DNA from: Cladocopium goreaui
Taxonomy: Eukaryota > Sar > Dinophyceae > Suessiales > Symbiodiniaceae
Direction: 5' to 3'
Assembly: GCA_947184155.2 (NCBI GenBank)
Contig: CAMXCT020001491.1
Location: 603,501 to 667,500 of the forward strand
DNA length: 64,000 bases
How positions within the stretch are numbered: position 1 is the stretch's first letter; the number at the start of each line of letters is the position of its first letter. A model generated the notes under the pieces. That model searched no databases. It saw only the letters and a list, made by a program, of their open reading frames with translations, and had not been told where the DNA came from. Positions 34,016-57,884 of this stretch are shown piece by piece. A program made the position numbers and the translations under genes.

Positions 34016-34125
34016 TACCCTCTGGTGAACTAACATAGCGAACTGGAAAATCACCATTCTTAATGGGAAAATCCACTATTTCTATAGCCATTTTCCATTG
34101 CTTTTTGTATGTTCACCAGAGGGTA
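34016..34125. mobile_element. F1 element, GTGAAC subtype
   Basis: The left is TACCCTCTGGTGAAC and the right GTTCACCAGAGGGTA, the same GTGAA ends as the nested copy at 2693. Confidence 0.85.
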
Positions 34126-34323: not shown

Positions 34324-37300
34324 CTGGAATCTTCCCCTCAGATCCATGTGCAAAAATCAGTGTTTGGCCACTGGAATGATGCCATGGATTCCCATAAAAA
34401 TCCGCAGAAAGATGCAATAAAGCTTCCAAAATCACCATAAAATCACCATAAAATCACCATAAAACTCCCATGAATTAGCCATAAATATCACCTCCCATCA
34501 GGTCGTTCCAACCCGCACCTTGGTCTCTTCATCCTTGGCCAACGCCAGGGCGGTCTCGCCGGTGCTCATCCGCAGGCACTCAGCGCGAGGCAGGGCGTGT
34601 GGAGAAATTCCAGGGGAATTATGAGATTTTCATGGTAAAATTAGAATGGTTTGGTGATTCATGGTGATGTTATTGGATTTTATGGGAGTTCAATGGTGGT
34701 TCATGAGGATTTCATGGGAGTTAATGAGAATTTAAATGGGAATTGATGTTGATTTATAAGATTATTCATGGAAATTATGTGGATATACTGAGGATTATAC
34801 ATGCAAACTATACTCTCTCTCTCTCTGTCTTGGGGATTGCTATTTTTGGGATGTTTGTTTGTTTTCTTTTGCTTTTTTTGGGGGGGTACAAATTTCTCAA
34901 CATATTCCTATAACCCCCAGTGTTATTGGTCAAACCTGTAATTTTGCGGAGAAATCCCCAATGTCCTCGTCATTCCTAGCTGCATCCGCAGGCCTCGATC
35001 ACTATATCCAAGGTTGATTCCCATTCCGCTGGGCTGCCGGTGATCTCGAAATATGTTGGATCAATTTCACTTCAACTCCATCCCACCCCCAAAAAAAACA
35101 GATAGAAAGCACCAACTATCACTATTTTGCGAAGGTTTTTGTAACATCACATCTATCCTGTTGGGGGGTTGCTATACGCCCTTCACCAAGGGTTTACCTT
35201 CCCAAATTGGCTCCCAAACGTGATCAGCGCCCGCTTCAAGCAGAAGCTTTACGGCCTTCATGTGACCTGGATTCTGGAACGCATGGATCATTTTCATCGG
35301 GAAGAAAGGGAAAACCAGGAATTTCTATTAGTACCCTCTGGTTATGACTAACATGGCCATGGTATAGATGGCCCATTTATAGATGGTTTACCTGGGTTTA
35401 CCTATTAGAAATGGGGATTTTCGATGGCTATGTTAGTCATAACCAGATGGTACTTGTCTTTGTTGGGAATTACGGGAAAACCCACTTATTTCTACAATTT
35501 TCTACATGATGTTTTACAGGGAAACCCACAGAAATCCACAAAATTCTGCTAGTAATCTCGCGAAAAGATGAAAAATGTACAGTACCATTTGTTTTAGGCG
35601 GACGTGGATTTCACTGGTGTATATGTGTATGTATATATATATATAAGTTCCTTCTTTCTGGGCGTGCTATGATAATCTATAATCAATTGGGTATATCAAC
35701 ACAGTATCCCACAGAATATGTCTGGATATATCATCATAGTTCACCAACCTGGGATAAAACCAGCTATGGGGATGATTCCCAGAATCCAATTCCCATCATT
35801 CCAATGACGTCGTGACGTGAGGTTGCTGTTTTTCATCCATCCTCAACCCAGATTAAACGGGCAGAAAAAAGTGAACAATCATCCCATGCGTGACTGGTTC
35901 ATAAGTGACTGGTTATGTTCCCATATTCAAAAAATGATAGTTGGTGAAACCCCCATTAGTACTCCCTCATTCTAGTTGGAATACATCCATTGATTGATCT
36001 TTATATACGATACCATCATCCAGGAATCCATACATCCATACATCCATACATACATACACACACATATGTGTATATATATATAGTAAGATATACATATATG
36101 AGGTGTGGATATACATATATGAGGTATGGATATATATATATATGCACATACCCACATAAATCATCTCTATGCACATACCCATCTCTAATCTCTGCCTTCT
36201 TGAGCCGCGACCAGCAGTGGTGTGGCACCATCCGAGGTGGCCTTGGTTTTTCAGATGGGACACCGGCGGGCAAAAATGGTGGTTTCATGGTGATTTAATG
36301 GTAATTCTACTATAAAACCATAGGAAAATGGTGGTTTAATGGTGTTTAATGATGTTTAATGATGTTCAATGGGGATTCAAAGGGGGCTCAAATAGTGGAT
36401 TTCTTATGGTGATGACTTATATGACTTGGGATTCTTTTCGTGGTTTCTAAATGGATTAATTGATGAAGAGGATTCGTAATGGTTGTTAATGAGATTTCTT
36501 TGTCAGGGCTCTTTTTTGAGGGGTATTCATGAGCGTGTTCATGGATCATTCATGGATCATTCATGGATTGGATTAGGGGAAAGTTATGACATGTTCCTAT
36601 AATTTTGGGGATAGCTGCTGTGGCCAAAGGTATTTCATAAGGGAAAAGGAACACCTGGTTCTTAAGCACTCTATCCACAATGGGCTCCTGCAAAGTTACC
36701 AGCAATTCTGGGACAAAAGTTTGGTTGCTGGGCCACCCCTCTGAAATCTCAAACCGCCACCGCGGCTGGGTCAAATGCTGGTGATTACGGAATGAAATTC
36801 CCGTGAATTTCCCATGTCTCATTAAATTCCATATAGTTCCTCTTAAAGTCCCATTACTATCTCCATAAATTCCCATAAATGACCTATAATTTTCCCATTT
36901 AAAGGGCCATTCAAAAGGGCGATTTTTCCATGACGCGCCGAAGCCCGCCTTGTTCACATCTGCGCTACCTCTCAACAAGACCTTCACGACCTCGTCCTGC
37001 AGTTCGGCGCGGCGCGGTTTTTGGGGAAGTCTCAGTTGAAAACCATGGGGAAAACATGGGAAAACGGAAAAAAACATGGGAATTGTCCGGTTTAAAAACC
37101 CATGGGAAAGCCATAGGAAATTCCATTCAAAGCATGGGAAAACAATGGCTTAGAGTGCCCATGTCTTCCATCTACTTACGGTGAAAACTGAAAATACAGT
37201 CATCAGTACCATCTGGTTATTTAACATAGCCATGGAAAATCCCTTATAAATAGGGTTTTTAATGGGAAAATCATCTATAAATGGGCCATTTTCCATGGCT

Positions 37301-40300
37301 ATGTTGAATAACCAGAGGGCAATTAGATGTTTCAACCTCCAAAACTTGTGATAGCACTGATGTTCAAATGATGTCCCCGGCTGAAACTGGTAAAATCATG
37401 ACAAATCTGGCTTTGCTGCTTAGAAAAACCCATGTTTGGTCGGGGTTCATTCATGTAAAGTCCCAAAAAATGAACAGTTTCCACATCTACATGCCCAATG
37501 AAACTCCCCTTGGGAATTCTCCTGGTTTTGGTTGGTGCTTAGACCAACCTGGATCCCCCGTGAAATCGAACCCTTGACATCCACAAAATAAAAAAACACA
37601 TTGAAAAGGCAAGAAAATTCACTCAAAATCCATGAAAATCCGCCCGTTTCTTCCCACCAGCGGTCTCCACCTGGTTCCGCAAGGACGCCACAAACAATGG
37701 CGTCTCGTTCGCCGGGGTGGCGCCATTGAGGTCGGCACCTCGGGAAATTTAATGGGATTAGACCATCTAAATGGGGATATGAATGGGAATTTTGAAAGAG
37801 ATTTCATGGGATTTTTCGGATTTTTCGTTGGAAACTATGGTGATTCATGGTGATTTCAATGGCATGGGAAGTTTGATGGGTTTAATGCTCATTTAATCAG
37901 ATTCTAGGGATTTTTTTGCGTGAATGTGTCAATGAAGTTGTATTTTTGCCAAGGCTTCCAACACTTTGCCGTGGGATTTAGTACTCAGATGACCTTTGGT
38001 AATACCCTCTGGTAATTATTTCGTGCCCTCCAATTGATTATATAACAGTAGTTAATACATGTTAATACTAGTTAGTAGTTTATTGGAGGGTCTATTTACC
38101 CTGTGCCAGTTAATTCTTACTGATGAATACCCTCTGGTACGTATACTTGCACATGGCCATGGAAACTGGCACATTTAGTCCGGTTTTACCTAGTAAACAT
38201 GGTGATTTTCCATATAGCTATGTTTTAATACCAAAGGGCAGCAGAATTTGTCAATCGTTTGATGACTTTGGGTCCAGCCAATTGTTTGCCAATCAATAAG
38301 GCTACATTGGCTAAGGATAATAGGGAGAAGTTCAGCGACAAACATGGGCATCTTTACAGATTGAGCAAATTGTGCAAAGTGTGGGGAGGTTCACCAATGG
38401 GGAGGTTAACAACAATTTCGCAAGACGACAGGACTAACCAATGAAGAATGGGGAGACTGACGAAATGTAACCGCTACCACTTCAGATGTTAACATGATGA
38501 TATTGATCAACCGACTTAAAAACCAGATTTGCCTAAGTACGATGTGAACCAACTCACAAATTGGACAAAAAAAAAGGTAGAGATTCAGCAAGATCCTGCT
38601 GCGGGCCCGAAAATTGCAACAGCATGACATAGAAATGACATAGAACGACTCCAGAGATGGCTTTGGAACCAGGGTTTCCTATTGGAAATGATGGCTTTGC
38701 TGATCTTTACCCAACTCACCTTTTGCGAAACATCATCTCGCCATGATTCCACGTGAAACATCCAACGTTCACTGGAAGATAACCCCCGAGTCGAGCTAAG
38801 GATTCTTCAGTAAACATCGGCTCCAGAGCTCGACTTGGACATGTCTGTGCAAAGTATTACTGCTACTGCTGCTACTACTACTGCTACTGTACCATATTTA
38901 TCCATATTTCATACTACTATATAGACTATACATGACTATACCATATTTCATCCTATGTCCAAAACCTGAAACAGCCATTTTATGATTGGGATGATACTTC
39001 TCTCCTAAGACCATGATCTGCACCGCGGCACCAAAAAAGATCCGGAAAGTGGTCCAAACACTGGAAGTCAAACAAGCCAACGAATGACGGAATAAAAAAC
39101 ATAACAACTTGCCAAAACAACTTTCCTGGTGATCCAGCCAGAAACTGTGATCTGGAAAAACGTGACAGCATCCTTTCCTATGCGGTAGATTCACCATCCA
39201 GCCAGGACACCCCCCTCTACAAGCACATTCACAATCGCCACCTGGAGATCGACGACCAACCGGTGGATTTTGGGGAAGTTACTTCTGAAAGCTGGCAATT
39301 GGCAATCTTGGGTGTACTATTTTGGGGATTTACTATGTCTAGAAGTCTAGCAGAAGTATGTCTAGAAGTAATTTTCCATGGTTTTCCACTTGTCCATTTT
39401 ACCTGCTGAGAATTTAAGGACCTTCTACGTTTGATCCCTTGATCTCTGGATGCTAGCGGCCTTATATCTTAGTCTATCCCAAATCACCAGCTACGGATGC
39501 GGAATGAGACCCAAAATTGGCGACTCCAGAAAACCATTGCTGGTTGGTAGTGTCAACCCCTCTGAAAAATATAAGTCAGTTGGGATTATTATTCCCAACA
39601 TATGGCGTCATAAAATTCCATGGTTCCAAACCACTAACCAGATTGCCATCCCTTTTGGGAAAAGGGTCTGTCGAGGTGGTCTGTGGCGGCGTCCGCTGAA
39701 AAATACGAGTCCTGTAGGTTCATGATCCCCCGTTCCAAGATCATATGTGAAGCAACAAAGCGGTGCTACCACTACAACTCCTGATAATTCTGGTTGAGAA
39801 CCCTGGTTCAACTGGATGGCCATTCCATCTGTCACCAAGGCACATAACCCTTGAGGGAAGCCACGTAGAGAGCCGTGGCACCATTGTAGCGTGCCTCCTT
39901 ATCCTCGGTGTGGGGTTTTTGTCGCTGGGAAAATCATCGAACTTCTGGCAGAATTTCCAACCATGTTTGATTGAGGCTAGGAAATGCACCATCTAGTTCT
40001 CATTATCTCAGCTGATTTTGTCTCTCCCGGATTGGCCAGCTGGCAACGGATGGAGGTGAGTTGCATCTACCAGTGGTGCCAGGATTTTCGTCCCAAATGG
40101 CGAAAACCTGCTCAATAATTTCCATCGATTCCATGTCCCATTTCTGTACCCATACCCGGCCTGGTCAACAAACTTTCAGAGTTTGCAACATTGAAGCCAT
40201 GGCCATAGAAAGTTCAGAAAGTTCGTGGATTTACCCATGAAAAATGGGGGATCTTCCCATAGCTTTTTGTATGTTTACCAGAGGGTAATAGTTGGAGGTT

Positions 40301-43300
40301 TACCTCCAGTACTGATATATACATCATCAAACGTAATGGGCCCATGGAATTTGAATGGGGTATAGAACCATAGTTAGTTTACGGAGGGTTTACACAGCTA
40401 TTTATGTTCTGCACTTCTATAATATCCCATACTACTACCATTACTTTATATTCTACGGTGTGGCATAATAGCTTATATAGTTGGAAACAACACCCTTTTA
40501 CATATAAAATATTGTTGTAACATTCCATGTCTCATATGTACTTTTGTGTCCTTTTAGTAATAACTGTAGTGATCATTTACCATCATCTACCATTATGGTT
40601 CAATATTACTATATATTGCTACTATATAGTTATAACCACATACTTATGTAACAATGGTAATGTGTGTCCCGAGACCGATATTATTGTCCCAGGATTACCT
40701 ACGTACTATAGTTATAATAATAGTTGAGAAGAAAAAGTACTTATGTACTTTTATAGGGTTCTTGAAAAGTACTTATTCTCCCACTAGTAAGTTGCAATAG
40801 ATCCAAGATGATAGCTATCTATAGTTATTAACTATAGGTATATCATGATATATCTAAGGTATATATCAATCTATTACATACATAAATCCCTATATACATA
40901 CATATATATATACATATATCCCTATAGTTTCTTTGTCCCAGCATCCCCACGTCGCCCCTCCACCAAGAGCTTCACCACCTCCACATGGCCCGCCTGCGGG
41001 GGGGGTCGTCCTACTGTCGTCTTACCAGGGAGCTTTGGAAACTGAAAAAGTCTTGGGAAAATCTGGAAAAATCATGATATTAGTAATTTTCAAGATTAGA
41101 AACTAGGAAATCTTTACTAATATTAGAAACCACTAATATTACCTTTGGAAACTGGGAAAATTTGTGAATTGACCTTCCTTTAGTAATATTAGATGTTGGA
41201 AAAATTATACTGTTTGATCATTTATATAAGATGTTTAATAGACTTCGGCAATAACTGTGGCAAATTGTACTTTTTTAGGGAATTGAACATGCTTAGTAAT
41301 TACCGATGTTGGTAATGGGGTGGTAATTTAACATGCTTAGTCCTGCTAATGATGTTGGTAAAAAAGAAAAAAACCTGGAAAAAAATGATGTTTTTTGAGA
41401 ATTGGACCTTCTTTAGTGATAATAGATGTTGGTAATATGGCTCTTCAAACACTCAAAATAGTAATAACGATAATAATAGCATTATATAGCATTAGTATAC
41501 AATAATAATGATGACAATAAGTATTATATAAGTACAGTACATCATCAAACTAAACTGGGTCATTGTCCGTAGCTATGTTCAATTACCAGAGGATGAAGAT
41601 TGGACTTGGGAATTCATTCAAGTGATGCAGGGATCCAAGTGATTGGGACTTGTGACTTGGCAGGACTTGAATCAAGAGAACGAATTAGGAACAAAGATTT
41701 AGTTTTTTAAAACAAGATGCAGCCCACGAACCCGAATGCTCACACCTATGTTAATGGTACAGATGTCAAAACACATGGATATGCAGTCACGCACAACACT
41801 TTTCTGCAATAGTTTGTTTGAACAGTCTTGTACATATTTCCCCTGTTACCAGTCTGCAGTGTGGAGTGTAAAGTGTAGAGTGTGGAGTGAGGGGTGTGGA
41901 GTTTGTAAATTGTAGAGTGTGGAGTGCAGAGTGTAAAGTGTAGAAGGTGGAGTGTGGAGTGTAAAAGGTAGAGTGTCGAGTGTGGAGTGAGGGGTGTCGA
42001 GTGGGGAGTGTGGAGTGTAAAGTGTAGAGTGTGGAGTGTGGAGTGTAAAGTGTGGACTGTAGAGTGTGCAGTGTGTAGAGTGTGGAGTGTGGAGTGTGGA
42101 GTGTGGAGTGTAAAGTGTAAAGTGTAAAGTGTAAAGTGTGGAGTGTAAAGTGTGGAGTGTGGAGTGTAAAGTGTAGAGTGTGGAGTGTGGAGTGTGGAAT
42201 GGAAAGTGTAGAGTGTGGAGTGCGCAATGTAAAGTGAGGAGTGTGGAGTGTAAAGTGTGGAGTGCAAAGTGTAGAGTGTGCAGTGTGGAGTGTGGACTGG
42301 GAAGTGGAAAGTGTAGAGTGTGGAGTGTAGAGTCCCGAGTGTAAAATGTAAAGTGTGGAGTGGAGAGTGTAGAGTGTAAAGTGTAGAGTGTGGAGTGTAA
42401 AGTGTAGAGTGTGCAGTGCGGAGTAAAGTGAGGAGTGTAAAGTGTGGAGCGTGGAGTGTAAAGTGTGGAAAGTGGAGTGTGAAGTGTGGAGTGTGGAGTG
42501 CCGAGCGTGGAGTGGAAAGTGTAAAGTGTGGAGTGTGGAGTGTAAAGTGAGGAGTGTGGAGTGTAGAGTGTGGAGTGTGGAGTGTGGAGTGTAAAGTGTG
42601 GAGTGTGGAGTGCAAAGTGTGGAGTGTGGAGTGTAAAGTGTGGAGTGTGGAGTGTGGAGTGGAAAGTGTAGAGTGTCAAAGGTGGAGTGTGGATTGTAAA
42701 GTGAGGAGTGTGGAGTGTAAAGTGTGAAGTGAGGAGTGGAAAGTGTAAAGTGTGGAGTGTAAAGTGTGGAGTGTGGAGTGTGGAGTGGAAAGTGTAAAGT
42801 GTGGAGTGTAAAGTGTGGAGTGTGGAGTGTGGAGTGGAAAGTGTAGAGTGTGGAGTGTAAAGCGAGGAGTGTGAAGTGAGGAGTGTGGCGTGTAAAGTGT
42901 GGACTGAGGAGTGTAAAGTGTAGAGTGTGGAGTGTAAAGTGTGGAGTGTGGAGTGTGGAGTGCAGAGTGTGGAGTGGAAAGTGTAGATTGTGGAGTGAGG
43001 AGTGTGGAGTGTAAAGTGAGGAGCGTGGAGTGTAGAGTGTGGAGTGAGGAGTGTAAAGTGTAAAGTGTGGAATGTGGAGTGTAAAGTGTAGAGTGTGGAG
43101 TGTGGAGTGGAAAGTGTAGCGTGTGGAGTGTAAAGTGTGGAGTGAGGAGTGTAAAGTGAGGAGTGTAAAGTGAGGAGTGTGGAGTGTGGAGTGTGGAATG
43201 AGGAGTGTAAAGTGTAAAGAGTAAAGTGTGGAGTGTGGAGTGTAAAGTGTGGAGTGTGGAGTGTGGAGTGGAAAGTGTAGAGTGTCAAAGGTGGAGTGTG

Positions 43301-46300
43301 GAGTGTAAAGTGAGGAGTGTGGAATGTAAAGTGTGAAGTGTGGAGTGAGGAGTGTACAGTGTAAAGTGTGGAGTGTAAAGTGTGGAGTGTGGAGTGTGGA
43401 GTGGAAAGTGTAGAGCGTGGAGTGTGGGGTGTAGAGTGTAGAGTGTAAAGTTGGAATGTCACAAAGTGCCACGCTGCCACGCCTGCCACGCAAAACGACA
43501 TGACAACCTGCTTAGAAACCCTCGAGCAGGAGATGTTTTGCAGCTTCCCCCATAGACACTGCGACGTGTCTAGAAAACCGGAGACACTTTCGGCTCGTTG
43601 TCAAACAGGTTGGAATGTCACAAAGTGCCACGCCTGCCACGCAAAACGACAGGACAACATGCGTGGAAACATTCGAAAAGGACAGGTTTGCCAGCTTCCC
43701 CCATAGACACGGCGACGCCACGGGAAAACCAGAGACTCGCGACAGAACACGTGGATGCAGAAATAACAGCATTTCGTACGAGACGTCCTCCAATTTTCAC
43801 ATTTTCAACACATTATCAAACAGGTTGGAATGTCACAAAGTGCCACGCCTGCCACGCAAAACGACAGGACAACCTGCTTGGAAACATTCGAAAAGGATAT
43901 GTTTTCCAGCTTCCCCCATAGACACGGCGACGCCACAGGAAAACCAGCGACTCGAGACAAGACACGTGGATACAGAAAAACCAGCATTTCGTACGAGACT
44001 TCCTCCAATTTCCAGAGTTGGCAACATAACAAAAGGACAAGTTTTGCAGCTTCCCCCATAGACACAGCGAAGCCACGGGAAAACCAGAGACTCGAGACGA
44101 GACACGTGGGAGCACCAAAACGAGCATTTCGTACGAGACTTCCTCCAATTTTGACACTTTGCAGCTTCAAAATCGACGTTTTCCTACGAGTTTTCCTTAG
44201 AACCCGAAAATTGGCAACATCAAAATCGATGTTTCGTGCGAGGCTTCCGTCAATTTTCAGCACATCGCACAAAATGCCACGCCTGCCACGGAATTTGCAC
44301 CTTGTCGCCACTTGACGCAGCCCTGCCAATGCGATTTACAAAAAACACGCAACACGACACGTCTAAAGTGCTGCGCCTGCCACGAAAAATGACGATGGAC
44401 ACGTCCAAAGTGCTGCGCCTGCCACGAAAACTGCAACACATCTTCTGAAAACGTCACAAAAGTATTGCGCCTGCCACGCAAAACGACTTTCGACACGTTG
44501 CAGAACACGTCTGAATGTCACGAAGTGCCACGCCTGCCAGGCGAAACGACGCAACGACACGTCTGAAACCTCCAAAAATGACCACCTCTGCAGAACTTCC
44601 CATAGGCACGGCCATACGGAGTTCGTACGAACGGTTGCGAACGGTTGCGGACGGTTGCGAACGGTTGCGGACGGTTGCGGACGCGGACGCAACGTCGAGC
44701 GAACACACCCTCAACCCCCAGACCCCCAGAGTGAAACGGGAACCCTTGCTACGCATTCGGGAAAAAGGAAACCGTTTTTCTTTCCACCATTCTTAACAAA
44801 AATTCTATAAAATGCCATGGAATCATGGAATGAACGGTTTGAGTCAAGGAACAGTGCGGCTTCCGAGTTACACGGGCACATGAACATTCCCGAGTCATCG
44901 TTGGATGAGTTTCCCAGCTGTAAACATCCATGGCTAAGCCATGTTGGCCTACCCAAGCATCATTTTATTCATGGATATTCCAATATTGTTCGTTATATCC
45001 CCATTATATCCATATGATATCCCATTTACCATTATTAAACCCCATGTTTATTAAATGCGCTGGCTATATCCGAAGTGTATCCCCATAAATTCCCATGAAA
45101 TTCCATACAATCCTGACAAATGCCTCATTAAATCACTAGAAAATCACCATTAATGATAATAAAATCACCATTACCCTCTGGTAAACTAACATAGCTATGG
45201 AAAATAGACCATTTATAGATTTATAGATGATTTATTCCATTAAAAATGGTGATTGTCCATAGCTATGTTAGTTTACCAGAGGGTAATCCCCATAAAAGTC
45301 CCATGTTTTATCAACCGGCCCTTCGCCCTTTTCCCCACTACCCCACCTGTACCGCAGCAAACAGGGGCGCCTGGCCATTGTTGGTGGCCTTCAGCGGCGG
45401 TCCATCATGTCGTGGATTATGAGGAAATCATGATGATCCTGGTGATTGATTGAGAATAAGGACGATATAATGACTATCATTGATTAAGTGATGATTATAA
45501 AATTATCAAATATATACATATATATATAGATATAGATATAGAAAGATGATTAGGTTGTAATGCTTCTTAGGATATACTATGATATACTGATTATTAGGAT
45601 TTCATGATTATTGAGATATAATGATCATTGACTGGGAATTGATGGATATTATGACTATTGTTGATGAGTGTGATACCTTCATATAATGATGATTGGGAAT
45701 ATGTATGGTAGAATGCTTATGGAAATTGATGATCTATTGATGTATGAAATAGTGATGGTCCCATGTATCTTGTGATGAATTTGCCTAGCCAATAGATGTG
45801 TTTCTGAAAATGGAAAAAAGTATATGGTATACCTCCAAATTTGCCATGCGTTGAATTGCGAAATATATGAAATAATACTATACTTGGATGTGTTTCCCCT
45901 AAATTGTCAGACAAACCCATCTAATGTTGGCAAAGCAATAGTAAACTATCCCCAATTTTACCGCATACGGGGGGTGTTAAGCATCAATCCATATGAGTGG
46001 TTTATTCTTTCCTTGAGAACAGTACAGGTGCTATCAATCCCAAGCATTTCAACATATTGGAGGTAGCTGTATATCTATTACCCTCTGGTTATTTAACATA
46101 GCCATGGAAAATCACCATTTTTAAAAGGGAAACCATCTATAAATGGACCATTTTCCATGGCTATGTTAAATAACCAGAGGGTATATGTCATTATCATTAT
46201 TTAGCATCCCACGTGTTTTTCACCTAAATCAAACAAAGCCATCTGCTCATGATGATCATCTACAGATCATCTACCGATTGGTGGTCTACTACTGATGATT

Positions 46301-49300
46301 GCTTTACCATGGCTTTACTACAGGATGGTGCCCCCCAGTCATGTTGTTGGTTTACAACCCCCATGAAAACTAGTTCGCCATATCTACCATAAACATCCAT
46401 AAACCATAGCTCATTCAGCCACAGCCATATCTCAACTGAACGTTATCTGAAGGGGGCCCCATCCTGCATGGTTTTCCAAGATTTCCCATATATTTTCCTA
46501 TGATTTTCCAAGATTTCCCATATATTTTCCTATGATTTTCCAAGATTTCCCATATATTTTCCTATGATTTTACCCAACCAACAACTCTTGGCGCGACTCG
46601 TGATGATCCACAGATTCTCACGGAGAAAAACAGCACCAAAAATGCCGGCCTTGTGGCGATCGGCGCCCGCCTGCAACCTGGTTCGGAAAAGCCCGCTCCG
46701 ACGGAGTGACCCAGTGGCCAAGAAAAAAGGGAACTATCCATCTATAGATGTAGATAAATCATAATGTAGATAAATCCATGTTAATCCATGTTAATCCATC
46801 TTAATCATGATTACTAATAGTAATGTCAACCCCGGATTAATAGTCACAATTAATTAGGGGGGTACTCCTCCAATAGTCACAATCCAATACTTAAATGGTA
46901 CCCCCCCAATTTAACAATCTAGGGGATTAATCCAGGGTTGACATTTTAGATGTAGATAAATCATATAGATGCATAGTGTTCTATAGAAAAAAGATGAAAA
47001 AAGGAACTATCTACGAAGATAAATCCAGTTAACTATCCATCTATAGAACATCTAAAAAAAACATATACATACATACATACATATAATATATGTATATACA
47101 ACTATGATTAACTATCCAATGATCTTGGTAAATTAGAATAATTCACTAACCTGAAATTAATAAGGCAAGTTTGGGATGATTCCCCTTACTAACCTTTAAT
47201 CCAGTGAGGGAGAACAGTGACGTCGCTATAATTTACCCAGATAAATTGAATAATGAAAATAATAATGAGAATGAATGAAAAAGGAATGATAGCAAATAGC
47301 AAATGATTATAGATGATAATGTACCACAAATGATAATAAGAATGAAAATGAATGAAAACTAATGAAAAATCTAAGAACGAAAAATAATGAACATAAGAAT
47401 GAAAAAGGAAGGATAGCAAATGACAATAGATGATGATGTAATCTGTAATGCATTATACTACAAATGATTCGCTTATGATTTGCGGACTGAGTATAGATGA
47501 TAAATGATCGAATCATAGATGATTCACCACATCATCTTCAGCAAAGCCAGGAGACAAAGAGTACACGCAAGCCCTATGGCCATTCTGCGCGGCTACAAAG
47601 AGCGGCGTGGCACCATCGTTACTGGCCTGGCCGTGTGGTGGTGTAATGCCAACCCTGAAATTATAAATTGTGTTGTATCATTTTAGTCATCTCCCCCATA
47701 AAAACAAAAGTTGAAAAGAAAATCCTACTAAAATTGTGATAATTCACTTGTTTTAATCTTTTTGGGGTTATATAATGTTATATACTATAGATGGTGGTTC
47801 CACCAATAGTGATGTATTTCGTTGAATTGCTAAAAAAAAAATGTTAACCCCTCTCTGAATGAACTGGCGGCGCATTAATCCTGCATTAGGATTATTCAAC
47901 CGCAACGTTGATTGCTCTTTCCACAGGAAAGCTGCAGAGAAAGATCTGCACACCCTTGTTTTCCTGCAGGGTATGCCGGTAGCGATGCCAGTAACGCCGG
48001 CGCCTTGTTCTTGCTGGCACCCACACGCAGCAGCAGAGTGATGCACCTCGGTATAATGTCCTTTTGGTAAAAATAGAGGGGCCGGGAGCTGGTATACCAT
48101 CTATCATCATTTACCTGTTAAAGGGGTAAACAAACCCCTCTATTAACCAACCAACAAATGGGAAAAGGACATCTATGATGTGCAAAACTGCTGCATCTTT
48201 GGCATTTTTTGGGGGGCCTGGAGAGCCCATTGGAATCACCAGAAGCGGAGGCCGCGAGGCCTGGTTCTTTGCCAAGTTTCTGAACATTTCCTCTGGCTGC
48301 AGCGATCTTCAGGGGGGTCGCGCCATCCAAGTTCTGCTTCTCCTGCCAAATCGGCTTAAAATCCGATCCCAAAATCTGAATCAAGTGCTGTAAAGGGCTG
48401 TCGCACCGTCCTTACGAGCCTTTGCTTCGAGCAGTAGTCTTAGAATCCTTGGGGGGATGCAATCTGCAGAACCCCTGGAGGCAAAGTTGGTCATGAATTC
48501 ATGACTCTCAGCAAGCCAAACATGAAAACCCCCAAAACTGTCTGCATGAAATGTATAGAAATTATTCATGAATTGACCCTCTGGTTATGACTAACAGTTC
48601 GCCATGGTATAGATGGCCCATAGAAATAGATGGTTTACCTATGGTTTACCTATTAAAAATGGTGGATCTTTCCATGGCAAACTGTTAATTTATGTGCCCT
48701 GCAGGTTAGACCCATCTGGTGATCAACCTCAGCTCCCAGATCAGTGGGCTTCTGTTGGGATCCCAACATTTTCTGCGGAAAACCATGGGATAAAACACCA
48801 AGGTACCCCTGGGAGTCTGCTAAAATCATGACAATTCCCATGACGGATCCATGGTGCTGATATATATGCTAACATAAATGGGGTATATTGATGGGATCCA
48901 TGTTACCATATATATATATAGCATATATGGATCCTATGGGATTGGACAGGAGAACCACAGTCAAAACATCAGAAAGCCACATTCAAATCATTCTCCAAGG
49001 GGATTGGTTTTCATGGTTTTCATCGACTTGGGCGACTTCGCTGAGTGTCTCATGGTGATTCCTCTCTGCCGCTTTGAAAACGGGCGTTTCGCCCCAGCAA
49101 TTGCTGGGGTCCTGGCAGCGCCCGGGATGACCCGATCTACATTTAGATTCAACGAGACGACGATGATCATGAACGAAAACTGAAGAAATAGATGGAAATA
49201 GCAATGTCTCATGATCAATTTCGAATAATCACACACATTTTCCGGCCAGAATCATTCTGATTCGAAGATCCCCATGGCAAGGCCTTCCCCCAATCGTGTT

Positions 49301-52300
49301 TCACCGGCCTTCTCCACATCGTTTTCAAGGAGGAACTCCACGATCTCCTGGCTGTTTGAGGTTTTGGGATACATTGGGAAAAAAAATTGGGTATGCCCCT
49401 ATATTAATTTCACATGGTAATGGAACATCCAAACTTTTCATGGATAATCATCTCTAAATAGGTGATTCCCCATGTAAAGTGGATGGTGTAAAATGACCCC
49501 CACAGGGTTGGATACTGGGATTGTTTTTTTTTGTGAGGTTTACCACATGAATTCTAACTCCCGTGATCATTCTCCCCCATGGCAAAATCCTCCTGCAGGA
49601 AGTGAAAAGTGCCGTTTTTTTTGGGGCGCACCGGCTGTTGACAGAACCCTGCAAAACAAAAGTCTTCCAAAACACCAACGTGACCAGAAATGGAGCATAT
49701 AAACAATCCCCAAAATTCAATGGGAATTCCAGGATCCTAAAATGGGGGTACTGTACCATATGTTTGGCCATATTTTGGGGATATATCCCCGTATACAAAG
49801 GCCTGAAAAATAGGCCTTACATATGGATACATATGGTAGGAACCGATTGGTAGGTACCTCCAATCAATCGGTTCCTGAAATTTCCATTGAAAAATGGAAA
49901 GTATCCACATCTACCACCATTGAATGTCCCGGGATGTTTAAACTCTGATGTTAAATTTTGGGCCAACTTAACCCCAAAATATTCTCGTCATCTCACCCGG
50001 TTCGTTCCAAGTATGGTTTCAAAAACACTAGGTATATTTGAAATAACCCAAAAATATATATATATATATTTAGAGGGAAAAAACTAGGTAGCACTATTCT
50101 GGTAGGATGTTGCTAACTTCCATCTTTTTCAGGGTTTACCCTATGGCTTACTATTAACTCCAACTATATAGTCACGGGCGGGTAATAAGCAGATTTCCTC
50201 CCCTGCCGGCAGACAAGCAGATTGCTCAACTGCCTCACTCGCCGGTAATCTATCTGCTTATTACCCCTAAAAATGTGTAAAATGAAAATCTGCTTATTAC
50301 TGTTGTCCCCAGACACTGGGTCGGTATAGTTTATCATAGCGATGGTCTCCTCTGATCATCCTGCCTTTTCCTTTGAAAACCTCTTGTTTTCGTGTGTTTT
50401 CTTCTGTTTTCTTTTCTTACCCTATTAGTACAAGTGTGTTTTCTGTAACAGGTGTTTCACATTTCCACCCAGGTATGGACCAAAAGCTAGCAGTGTCAAC
50501 CTTTCCAACGCATGAGTTGCACCAAAATATTATGGTTTTTAATTGTGGGTGGAAAGCAATGAAAAACAAACACAAAGGAAATAGCTAAAATCAGGTTTTC
50601 TTAGATTATATCATTTTTCCTTTGGTATCCTTTGATTCCCTTTGATTTCCTTTGGTTTCCTTCGGTTTCCTTTGGTTTGGGACTAGGTGGATTCTATGGT
50701 TTCCTTTGGTTTCCTTCGGTTTCCTTTGGTTTGATTTGTTTTCCTTTGGTTTCCAAGAGAGAAACAAAGGAAAAGAAAATCCAAGGAAAAAACAAACCAA
50801 TCAAGGACACTCTAAGGAGGCTGAAAACCGATAGAATGCATCAATCATGCCTGTTACTAAGGAGGCTGCTAGAGCTAGAGTTTAGTTGTTTTCCGTCAGT
50901 GACCGAACTTCTGATTCTGTATACGCGTACAAACCTACAGCAATAAACCAAAATGCAATTTCCCCGACACGAGCAAATTGATCAGGTGCCCCGTATACAA
51001 TGAAAATGAGTTGCTTCTTACAGTCTGAGTGGACCTACTCCATTCAGTGTACAATATGTTTCTGGTGGGTATCATGTAAAGGGGCCTAGAAATTTGCCAG
51101 CCCAGAGTAAAGAAACAATGTGTGGCTCTTGGTCTTGCAGCGACCCTTTCTTGTGGCTCTTGGTTTTCAGGTGACCCTTTCTTGTTGCAATTATTCCTCA
51201 AAGCTTCTTTACAATTCAACGCTTTTGACATTGTCTTGGACTCCTAGAAACGGCAGCCCTTCTATACTGTGCTGTGACGATTGATTGAGACTGCTTAAAC
51301 AAATTATTCTGGTATATTCTAGTCTGATTCAGTTTCTGCCCGGCAATTTCTTGAATTTGGTGCCCTAGGAAGTCCCAATTTTCAAGCAACTGTAATAAGC
51401 AGATTTCCACATCTGCTTACTACAGTCAGGGTAGTTTAAGGCGTAGTGCAGATCAACCAACTATAATAATGCATGCTTTCAAGCAAATGTAGGTGTCCTC
51501 GGGCTGGTTTTTTTGTGTTTTTTTCCGGCAATTTCTCTCGGAATGCCGTTTAAACATACATTTGGGGCTTGATTTTGGGCCCGTCCTTTTGTCACAACCC
51601 TTTCTCATTCCAAAACTCCCTTAAGACTGCTTTACAAACGAACGCTTTTGACACTGCCTTGGACTCCTAGAAACGGCAGCCCTTCCGCTGTTAAACACAT
51701 TATTCTAGTCTGCTTCAGTTTCTAGGCTGTGGCCCGGCTATTTCTTGAATTTGTTGCCCCAGGAAGTCCCAACTTTCAAGCAGCTGTAATAAGCAGATTT
51801 CCAAATCTGCTTTCTACAGTCAGCGTAGTTTAAGGTGTAGTGGAGATCAACTATAATGCATGCTTTCATGCATTTGTAGGTTCCTGGGACTGGTGTTTTG
51901 TGTTTTTTCCGGCAATTTCTTTCAGAATGCCTTTCAAACATACATTTGCGGCTTGATTTTGGGTCCGTGCTTTTGTCGCAACCCTTTCTTGTTCCAACAC
52001 TCCCTTGAGACTGCTTTACAAATGAACGCTTTTGACACTGCCTTGGACTCCTAGAAACGGCAGCCCTTCTATACTGTGCTGTGACGATTGATGAGGACTG
52101 ATTAAACACACCATTCTATTATAGTCTAATTCAGTTTCTAGGCTGTGGCCCGGCTATTTCTTGAATTTGTTGCCCCACCAAACGAAGTCCCAATTTTCAA
52201 GCGGCTGTAAGAAGCGGATCTCCAAATCTGCTTACTACAGCCAAGGTGTAGTGGAGATCAACTATAGTGCATGCTTTCAGGCATGTGTAGGTTACCTCGG

Positions 52301-55300
52301 GCTGGTTTTTTTGTGTTTTTTTCCGGCAATTTCTCTCGGAATGCCGTTTAAACATACATTTGGGGCTTGATTTTGGGCCCGTCCTTCTGTCACCCGTCCT
52401 TCTGTCACAACCCTTTCTCATTCCAAAACTCCCTTAAGACTGCTTTACAAACGAACGCTTTTGACACTGCCTTGGGCTCCTAGAAACGGCAGCCCTTCTA
52501 TACTGTGCTGTGATTGATTGAGACTGTTTAAACAAATTATTCTGGTATATTCTAGTCTGATTCAATTTCTGGGCTGTGGCCCGGCTATTTTGAGTTTGTT
52601 GCCCAAAGAAGTCTCAACTTTCAAGCAGCTGCAATAAGCAGATTTCCAAATCTGCTTATTACAGTTTGTGCAGCAGAGAACAATGCTTGCTTTCAGGCAT
52701 TTGTAGGTTCCTCGGGCTGGTGTTTTGTGATTTTCTAGCAATTTCTCTCAGAATGCCTTTCAAAAATAAATGTGCGATTTGGGGCTTGATTTTGGGCCTG
52801 TGCTTTTGTCGCAGTCCTTTCTTATGGAGGGCTATTGATTTTAGGTTTCTTTTGAGCAGGTTCAGGTATTTTCTTTGGATTCTTGAATTTCTTCTGCTCC
52901 TGCTTCTCTGCTTTTCTACTTCTCTGCTTTTCTGCGTGTTTGCTCTTTTGTTCTCTGCTTGTATGCTTTTCCTGCTTTTCCGCTATTTTGTTTTTTTCCT
53001 GCTTTTCTGCTTCTCTGCTTTTCTTGCTTCTCTCTGTTCTGCTTCCCTGTTTTTTTCCTTTTTCTTCCTGCTTCGCTGCTTTTCTACTTCTCTGCCTTTC
53101 TATTTCTACTTGTCTTTTTCTGCAGTCATGCATTTTCATGATATTTCTCAAGGACAAAAATACGCACACCATTCCCATATTTCGTGTTACCTTTAGTCGA
53201 ATTTGAATTGTGCAAGCAGCTGCAATAAGCAGATTCCCGATTTCACCAATTCCCACATAATGGGAATCTGCTTATTACAGGTCTGATTTAAGGGTACCCC
53301 ATTCTAGCAGATCCTTATTTGAGCGTTTTTGAGGGTTTTGGGGGTGTGATAAGCAGATGAAAATCTGCTTATAACCTGTCCGCGACTATAAGGACCTAAA
53401 TGGATTTTATAAAACTACAGTTAGTATGTTCGAATGGTACCACCTGCATGAAATTGTAGTATGTTATAGTTTTATGAAAACCAACTTTAAAGTCTGGTAG
53501 GTGGTTTCAAACAGCTATTCAATCATACACCACCTAGTATTTTAGTGATGTTTGAAACAACCTGCTATAAGAATTTAAGATCAATCACCACAATTACAAA
53601 TCATAGTATGTTTAAAAAATGACAAAATCTCAATAGCTAGATTTTCTATACCATTCTAAACCACTATAGTATGTTTCAATGGTATGTTTGAAACCACTTC
53701 TATACCAGCTATTCCAAATGGTAAACCCCTGGCACGGCCATGCCAGAAATCGCCTGGTGACCATGCTGTGCCGCCAGCATCAAAGGCGTTTCCCCCTGGT
53801 TGTTGGACAAGTTCATGTCCTGTGGCACGTTTACCAGAGGATAACCCACTAAAATCTGTTTTTCTGTTGGAGACGTCCTCCACATGGCAAAAATCAACCC
53901 AGCGGCTCTTACGATTTTTCACCAAGCGACAGCATCTGCGTAGCAAAGCAGCTGCATCATTTCCATATGGCCTGACTTTGGGGGGTTCCATAGTCATGGG
54001 GATACCCAATAGCTGGATTTTTTTTCCAATTGCTGGGATCCAATTATTGTGGTATCCAATAGGGATCCCCATCTTAAAAATGGTAACTAGGGGTAGCCCG
54101 AAAAATTGGGAAACCCCCTAATTTTGTAAGTCCATGGTGAGCACGCCATCAGAATCTCACATCCCAAAAAACAATATGTGCCCTCACCTTCTCCCCATGT
54201 GTGCGCGTGGTTCTTTCCCTTTAAAACCATTCAAGTGCCTTCCATTTGTTCCCCACTTTCACCCCAAATTTCTCAGTAATCATCTAACTTCCATCTTTTC
54301 CCCATCTAAATCCCCCATATCCCCCAAAGACACTCCACGGTCGTCAGCTCATGCTGCACCTCGTCGACAGGCTTTCAAGGCAGCCGTCTCCCCCGCGCGG
54401 TCCATGGAGTTAGGCTCCTTGCGAAGCTCGCGGTGGGTTTGTTGGGATGATTCTTGGGTGCCCCTCTGGTAGTTTAACATACTATATTACAGAGGGGTAT
54501 CAATACTACTATCATCAATATATAATTAATACTAAATATCTGTAATATCAACTATCATCATGAATATCAATATCATACTATCATCATGAATATCAATATC
54601 TATATGAAAAATGGCTATTCATTACAGATATTGATATTCATGATGATAGTTGATGATAGTTGATGATAGTTAATAATAACTGGTTGTATAGCTCAATGGA
54701 TTGGTTTAAGGGAAAATCTTGACCGGAAACCATAGATTATAGATGTTCCCACTAAATATGGGGTTTTCGGGAAATGTTTCCCTTAAACCAATCCATTGAA
54801 TGGTTGAATGTTGACACATGCATACATATAGTTCATATGTGATTGAATATTGAATGATGATTCTTGCGTGATACCCCCTAATTTAATGTAGATGGGTCTT
54901 GATGTACTGATTAGGATGGTTGAATCTTGACATATGGATACAATCAAATCACCATTTATAATGGTTACATCACCATTTTCCTATGGTTTTCCTAATGTTT
55001 GAATGATGATTCTTGGGTGACATTTTTCTTGGTATCACTGGATGGGAAAAATCCGCAGGAACCCATCGTTGCCAGTTGCCAATCTTGGTGCACCGTAACC
55101 CGGGCCTGGGGCAACATGAGACAAGCTTCCGCCTCGCAGAAAGTGGTCCGGAGACAAAGGAATTTGGACTCGGTGTGAAAATCAGATGCTGTGAGTGAAT
55201 GAATATACATATATATATATATTATGTATGTGTGTGTGTGTATGTGTATGTGTGTATGTGTGTATGTGTGTGTATGTGTGTATGTGTATGTGTGTGTATG

Positions 55301-57884: not shown

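Follow-up and report, generated by a model that had tools for sequence, protein, structure and literature searches.

A very intron-dense ankyrin gene of a dinoflagellate, with about two predicted introns per repeat, probably shaped by stepwise intron gain

Applying a half-repeat junction search to a 64,000-nucleotide stretch of a dinoflagellate genome (the window, positions 603501-667500 of contig C1491), we recovered on the minus strand, from 54405 to 35198, an ankyrin gene model of 18 exons, 907 nt and 302 residues with nine repeats, exons of 28-71 nt (the 16 inner ones averaging 49.5 nt) and introns of 68-4406 nt. That this very intron-dense gene with dinoflagellate-type introns is real appears close to certain from the sequence, its splicing being predicted. 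The main origin of its intron pattern was probably, in a reading that we hold with modest confidence, the stepwise gain of introns into an existing repeat array. A repeat protein lets intron positions be compared column by column within one gene, its nine repeats acting as internal replicates of a single sequence. The preliminary description had placed the gene at 34519..57884 with half-repeat exons of 27-68 nt; the supported span and exon sizes are those given here, and pieces near 57884 and 34519 were discarded as gene parts because they gave no in-register extension.

As the anchor of each half repeat we took either its conserved glycine (column 0) or the position of the helix 2 glutamate (column 14); all combinations of a GT, GC or GA donor with an AG acceptor were then enumerated, provided that they preserved the 33-residue spacing. 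The first scan solved 16 of the 17 junctions, 13 with one solution each, and a G followed the AG in 18 of 19 solutions, this G being no condition of the search. With a wider search range and AG|G demanded, all 17 were solved, exact 33-residue register being itself a search condition; 13 junctions had one solution and four had two, the better-scoring of which was taken. Donors in the final model are GT (7), GC (6) and GA (4), with the demanded AG|G at 17/17. Pairing the true left anchor with a random right place gave a solution in 17.1% of first-to-second-half and 18.9% of second-to-first-half trials, and the observed repeat scores were matched in at most 0.4% of random trials, the exception being A0>B0, the weakest junction of the model (3.0%, P 0.030). 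A scan already demanding AG and a donor supplied exons B0 and B5, which are thus less independent than the other exons. The predicted exons are as follows.

54360..54405, minus strand: exon A0, helix 1 of repeat 0, MDRAGETAALKACRRG
53931..53971, minus strand: exon B0, HMEMMQLLCYADA, from the scan with AG before and GT/GC/GA after
53754..53819, minus strand: exon A1, DMNLSNNQGETPLMLAAQHGHQ, donor GC
49309..49347, minus strand: exon B1, EIVEFLLENDVEK, donor GC
49050..49111, minus strand: exon A2, DPSNCWGETPVFKAAERNHH, donor GA, phase 2
48411..48447, minus strand: exon B2, ILRLLLEAKARK, donor GA
48281..48342, minus strand: exon A3, EKQNLDGATPLKIAAARGNV, donor GA, phase 2
48004..48046, minus strand: exon B3, CITLLLRVGASKNK, donor GC
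47556..47626, minus strand: exon A4, extending into helix 2, ASNDGATPLFVAAQNGHRACVYS, donor GT, phase 2, unsolved in the narrower scan
46650..46677, minus strand: exon B4, the shortest (28 nt), LQAGADRHK, donor GC
45347..45388, minus strand: exon A5, ATNNGQAPLFAAVQ, donor GT
40946..40993, minus strand: exon B5, AGHVEVVKLLVEGRRG, donor GA, from the AG/donor scan
39844..39903, minus strand: exon A6, DKEARYNGATALYVASLKGY, donor GT
39211..39241, minus strand: exon B6a (31 nt), VAIVNVLVEG, donor GT, phase 1
37671..37738, minus strand: exon B6b-A7, hairpin and next helix 1 together, ADLNGATPANETPLFVASLRNQ
36949..36996, minus strand: exon B7, DEVVKVLLRGSADVNK, donor GC
36196..36241, minus strand: exon A8, ATSDGATPLLVAAQE, donor GC, phase 1
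35198..35266, minus strand: exon B8, HMKAVKLLLEAGADHVWEPIWE

The gene may start at the ATG at 54405, or exon A0 may extend farther upstream, and the 3' end of exon B8 has two options, a splice at AAG|GTAAAC or read-through to the TAG at 35174-35172. No further ankyrin repeat was found on either side of the model. In the first gene model a single NK|A site had served for five hairpin introns, two of which were moved to column 27 by the exact register; the same register changed the start of exon A3, and an A4>B4 junction with a GG donor was dropped once a GT...AG|G solution was found. An in-frame DGATAL after exon B2 had prompted the idea of introns as tandem exon copies.

The series of half repeats is not a product of chance. 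On the minus strand of the window, 12 half-repeat profile matches scored at least 40; the plus strand had 1, and the reversed sequence, counted over both strands, also had 1. Ten of these minus-strand matches are part of the gene; the two outside it (60043 and 34085) resemble a dispersed element with similar matches in L032 and L035. The flanks and the control gene (199,685 bases, both strands) gave 5 matches of at least 41, which were all of the second-half type and scored no higher than 45. With this profile the flanks showed no neighbouring split ankyrin gene. The six pieces quoted in the preliminary description all lie in the window on the minus strand, each inside one exon of the final model, and the alternation of first-half and second-half pieces that it proposed is borne out over nine repeats. 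Its two introns per repeat were likewise recovered: eight of the 99-nt repeat windows hold 2 apiece and the last, where the 3' end is open, holds 1. Most exons carry one helix each, as its splitting of helices between exons implied.

As control we used the CCT eta gene from this genome, which comprises 1.17 Gb in 6202 contigs, and aligned it to a reference protein with a spliced-alignment program. Allowing GT, GC and GA donors gave 12 introns (GC 7, GT 3, GA 2), 10 of which were unchanged when any donor was allowed, and raised the alignment score from 971 with GT alone to 1299; AG|G stood at all 12 acceptors, the G not being demanded. These inner exons average 113 nt (n=11) against 49.5 nt (n=16) in the ankyrin gene (Mann-Whitney P 0.0002, one control gene). 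A 21-mer that we take to be the dinoflagellate spliced leader had 172 exact sites in the genome, and its reversed control had 0. The splice pattern of CCT eta agrees with the rule published for Symbiodinium, namely GT, GC and GA donors, AG then G, and many introns per gene, and the ankyrin gene resembles Symbiodiniaceae introns in all of these respects (PMC4083563, in the part available). Most of its introns fall inside the range of dinoflagellate species-average intron lengths, 377-4709 bp, whereas its inner exons, at 49.5 nt, contrast with exon averages of at least 98.7 bp (98.7-120.4 bp in four species and higher in two others) in the available table of PMC10666404.

Intron positions within the repeat are similar without being identical. 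From A0>B0 to B3>A4 the columns are 11.33, 25, 14, 27, 14.67, 27, 14.67 and 29, and from A4>B4 to A8>B8 they are 19.67, 29, 10, 26, 13, 23.33, 13, 29 and 11.33, so that the 17 introns occupy 11 distinct columns, with phases 0/1/2 at 11/3/3. The two fixed sites expected from the preliminary description thus gave way to this scatter: the site right after ADxNK (column 29) is used, by 3 of the 17 introns, and the turn introns are present, spread over columns 10.0-14.67. Eight introns lie in the turn (10-15), eight in the hairpin (23-30) and one, A4>B4 at column 19.67, within the second helix, leaving 16/17 in inter-helix loops. These zones were observed before testing, and genes with split helices would escape notice, so the find as a whole carries a selection bias. 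The second-harmonic statistic was 0.61 (the periodicity R2 was 0.71 earlier, without A4>B4), with P from 0.000 to 0.014 under six nulls; each distributed 17 introns over N|G sites, and they differed in whether AG|G was preferred and a minimum exon imposed. Under the same nulls, evenness of spacing (CV 0.27) gave P from 0.000 to 0.105, which indicates that a 28-nt minimum exon and AG|G preference nearly explain the evenness and explain the alignment to the repeat less well. AG|G sites host 10 of the 17 introns, and 10 of the 27 such sites are used; AGG density is 29.8 per kb in the ankyrin gene, 16.3 in CCT eta and 7.9-23.2 in eight uninterrupted ankyrin frames. In repeat 6, NG|A replaces the usual NK|A and no intron sits at the site; the K-to-G change removes the AAG there and the intron lies elsewhere, at column 23.33, which we count in favour of gain.

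In the order of events and mode of gain that we infer, the starting state would have been an uninterrupted repeat array. Introns would have been added one by one at N|G sites, AG|G being preferred, until any further insertion would have left exons below about 28 nt. The turn and hairpin codons repeatedly offer AG|G sites, so such saturation would yield roughly two introns per repeat at similar, non-identical places. The minus-strand transcript of this single-copy-looking gene would then be spliced by the dinoflagellate rule (donor GT, GC or GA, acceptor AG then G) into an mRNA encoding at least nine 33-residue ankyrin repeats, and the protein may have a binding or scaffold role. The clustering is stronger than under most of the insertion nulls, so AG|G preference and a minimum exon may not explain everything. 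Protein structure might steer where introns are gained in this lineage, or which of them survive once gained, loops between helices being favoured since imprecise splicing would cost least there; we regard this as unlikely. If true, independent gains would end up at the same module boundaries and look like ancient exon modules.

The preliminary description had left the choice between duplication of a two-exon unit and recurrent insertion, shared phases speaking for the former and unlinked phases and unrelated intron sequence for the latter. With 11 columns, three phases and intron ends that are not significantly alike, the evidence leans to insertion, with a hint of duplication in four neighbour pairs of equal column (B1>A2/B2>A3 at 27, A2>B2/A3>B3 at 14.67, B3>A4/B4>A5 at 29 and A6>B6a/A7>B7 at 13; permutation p 0.054). 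Copying of one two-exon unit in its simple form is not supported, the same columns and phases not being found in all repeats. A tandem duplication of a helix 1 plus helix 2 exon pair followed by paired donor/acceptor shifts, a possible but rather doubtful origin, would account for eight repeat windows having two introns apiece and for the clustering of introns in two loops, and tandem exon duplication is called common in dinoflagellates (PMC8045281, in the part available). Preserving the 33 residues would nevertheless require every shift (up to about 17 nt) to be compensated at both ends, and the repeats are old, with a mean amino acid identity of 35% (range 21-55). Intron ends sharing a column (7 pairs) showed no excess similarity over the others (129; p 0.21-0.46), a comparison in which old introns may have diverged too far. 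The best pair, A6>B6a with A7>B7, seemed homologous initially (z 7.3), but its 15-nt match (P 0.0018) was lost after correction for 136 comparisons.

Introners, transposable elements that insert as ready-made introns, are reported to be widespread in dinoflagellates in the available parts of PMC11453091 and PMC7789003, and the ankyrin gene shares their setting of an intron-dense dinoflagellate gene with AG|G context. That each of its introns is or was an introner nevertheless seems improbable, since the described signature, inverted repeats of 8-20 nt close to each end together with direct repeats of 3-5 nt (PMC7789003 and PMC10666404, in part), was not recovered: 0/17 introns had an inverted repeat of at least 8 nt in the 30 nt next to each end, direct repeats at intron ends were not significant (3.47 vs 3.04, p 0.087), and end pairing of the Amoebophrya-introner type was seen neither in 13 introns of the first model nor in the final 17. 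The 197-nt intron B1>A2 matched itself alone in the genome, and five more introns, searched whole within a 2.8-kb query, yielded solely copies of internal elements among the best 40 of 7570 candidates. By these tests of ends, repeats and one genome search, no intron was assigned to an introner family; old introners may have decayed. High-copy inverted-repeat elements do lie within introns A3>B3 and A2>B2, but they are internal, one ending 6 nt from the acceptor, and do not make up the whole intron. It is very improbable indeed that the gene is a pseudogene in decay or that ankyrin-like fragments line up here by chance: the gene ends were not found and the first junction is weak (P 0.030), but 18 open exons follow one another in order, strand and register, exon GC is 0.58 against 0.42 for the surrounding region, and the match counts depart from those of the plus strand, reversed sequence and flanks. 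The spliced 302-residue protein matches Pfam Ank_2 with an E-value of 1.8e-63, passing the curated cut-offs of PF00023/PF12796 (Ank_2 211.5 bits vs 27.3; Ank 197.5 vs 21.1).

Uninterrupted ankyrin frames, with the same 33-residue repeat as the window gene, are abundant in the genome. An ankyrin profile search gave at least 245 matches and a search with the spliced protein at least 383, the best 150 candidates being scored in each case; hundreds of these matches lie in long open frames elsewhere. When an earlier model of 252 residues was compared, its residues 6-245 were 48% identical to the best-matching uninterrupted frame. These frames lack introns, and in three of the four measured their repeats are 87-88% alike (L004, L006 and L011; 61% in L002), against 35% in the window gene. 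In L002, L004, L006 and L007 the uninterrupted frame runs from an N-terminal stretch RF[KR]..LF..DG, presumably ubiquitin-like, into ankyrin repeats. A genome-wide search with two half-repeat exon patterns, which required TAG or TYNCAG ahead of column 29, matched 0 places, as did the control; since the gene's own exons also fail these patterns, this search says little about other split genes.

Animal ankyrin genes have about one exon per repeat. The window gene is like them in having introns tied to the repeat unit, and unlike them in having two per repeat at no fixed column. Introns matching structural modules have long been taken as evidence of past exon shuffling. In this gene the spacing is module-like, yet columns and phases differ, suggesting that exons of this kind can form late as well, through repeated gain under loose splice rules. 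The gene thereby offers a compact test case for the filling of intron-rich genomes with introns. A literature search of limited depth on ankyrin intron positions found no description of such a gene.

Among the best 40 of 7570 candidates, the 2.8-kb gene core had a full-length genome match at itself only; the other 47 core matches listed all lie in introns, and 37 of the 48 correspond to an inverted-repeat element of about 125 bp. Copies of the A3>B3 element share 90-96% identity and occur on many contigs, again among the best 40 of 7570. Relatives of the A2>B2 element lie in other introns of the gene, in both orientations and away from splice sites. A family of elements of about 105-125 bp, with arms like TACCCTCTGGTTATTTAACATAG, also occurs in both orientations.

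48053..48179, no strand assigned: high-copy inverted-repeat element of about 125 bp, intron A3>B3, ending 6 nt before the acceptor
48573..48689, no strand assigned: second high-copy inverted-repeat element, intron A2>B2
34016-34125, 35330-35454, 37207-37319, 45170-45287 and 46079-46183: elements with TACCCTCTGGTTATTTAACATAG arms

Intron A5>B5 contains a 1.6-kb minisatellite (41858-43446) of 21/28/49-nt units with strong G skew, and a 215-nt tandem repeat of about two copies lies at 43601-44011. In intron A1>B1, a tandem array (51338-52812) of units of about 384-429 nt carries in each unit the palindrome TAATAAGCAGATTTCC / AATCTGCTTATTACAG. Contigs C1 and C2380 each bear three full-length, bacterial-looking Cpn60 frames, and from these six frames the assembly probably includes culture bacteria.
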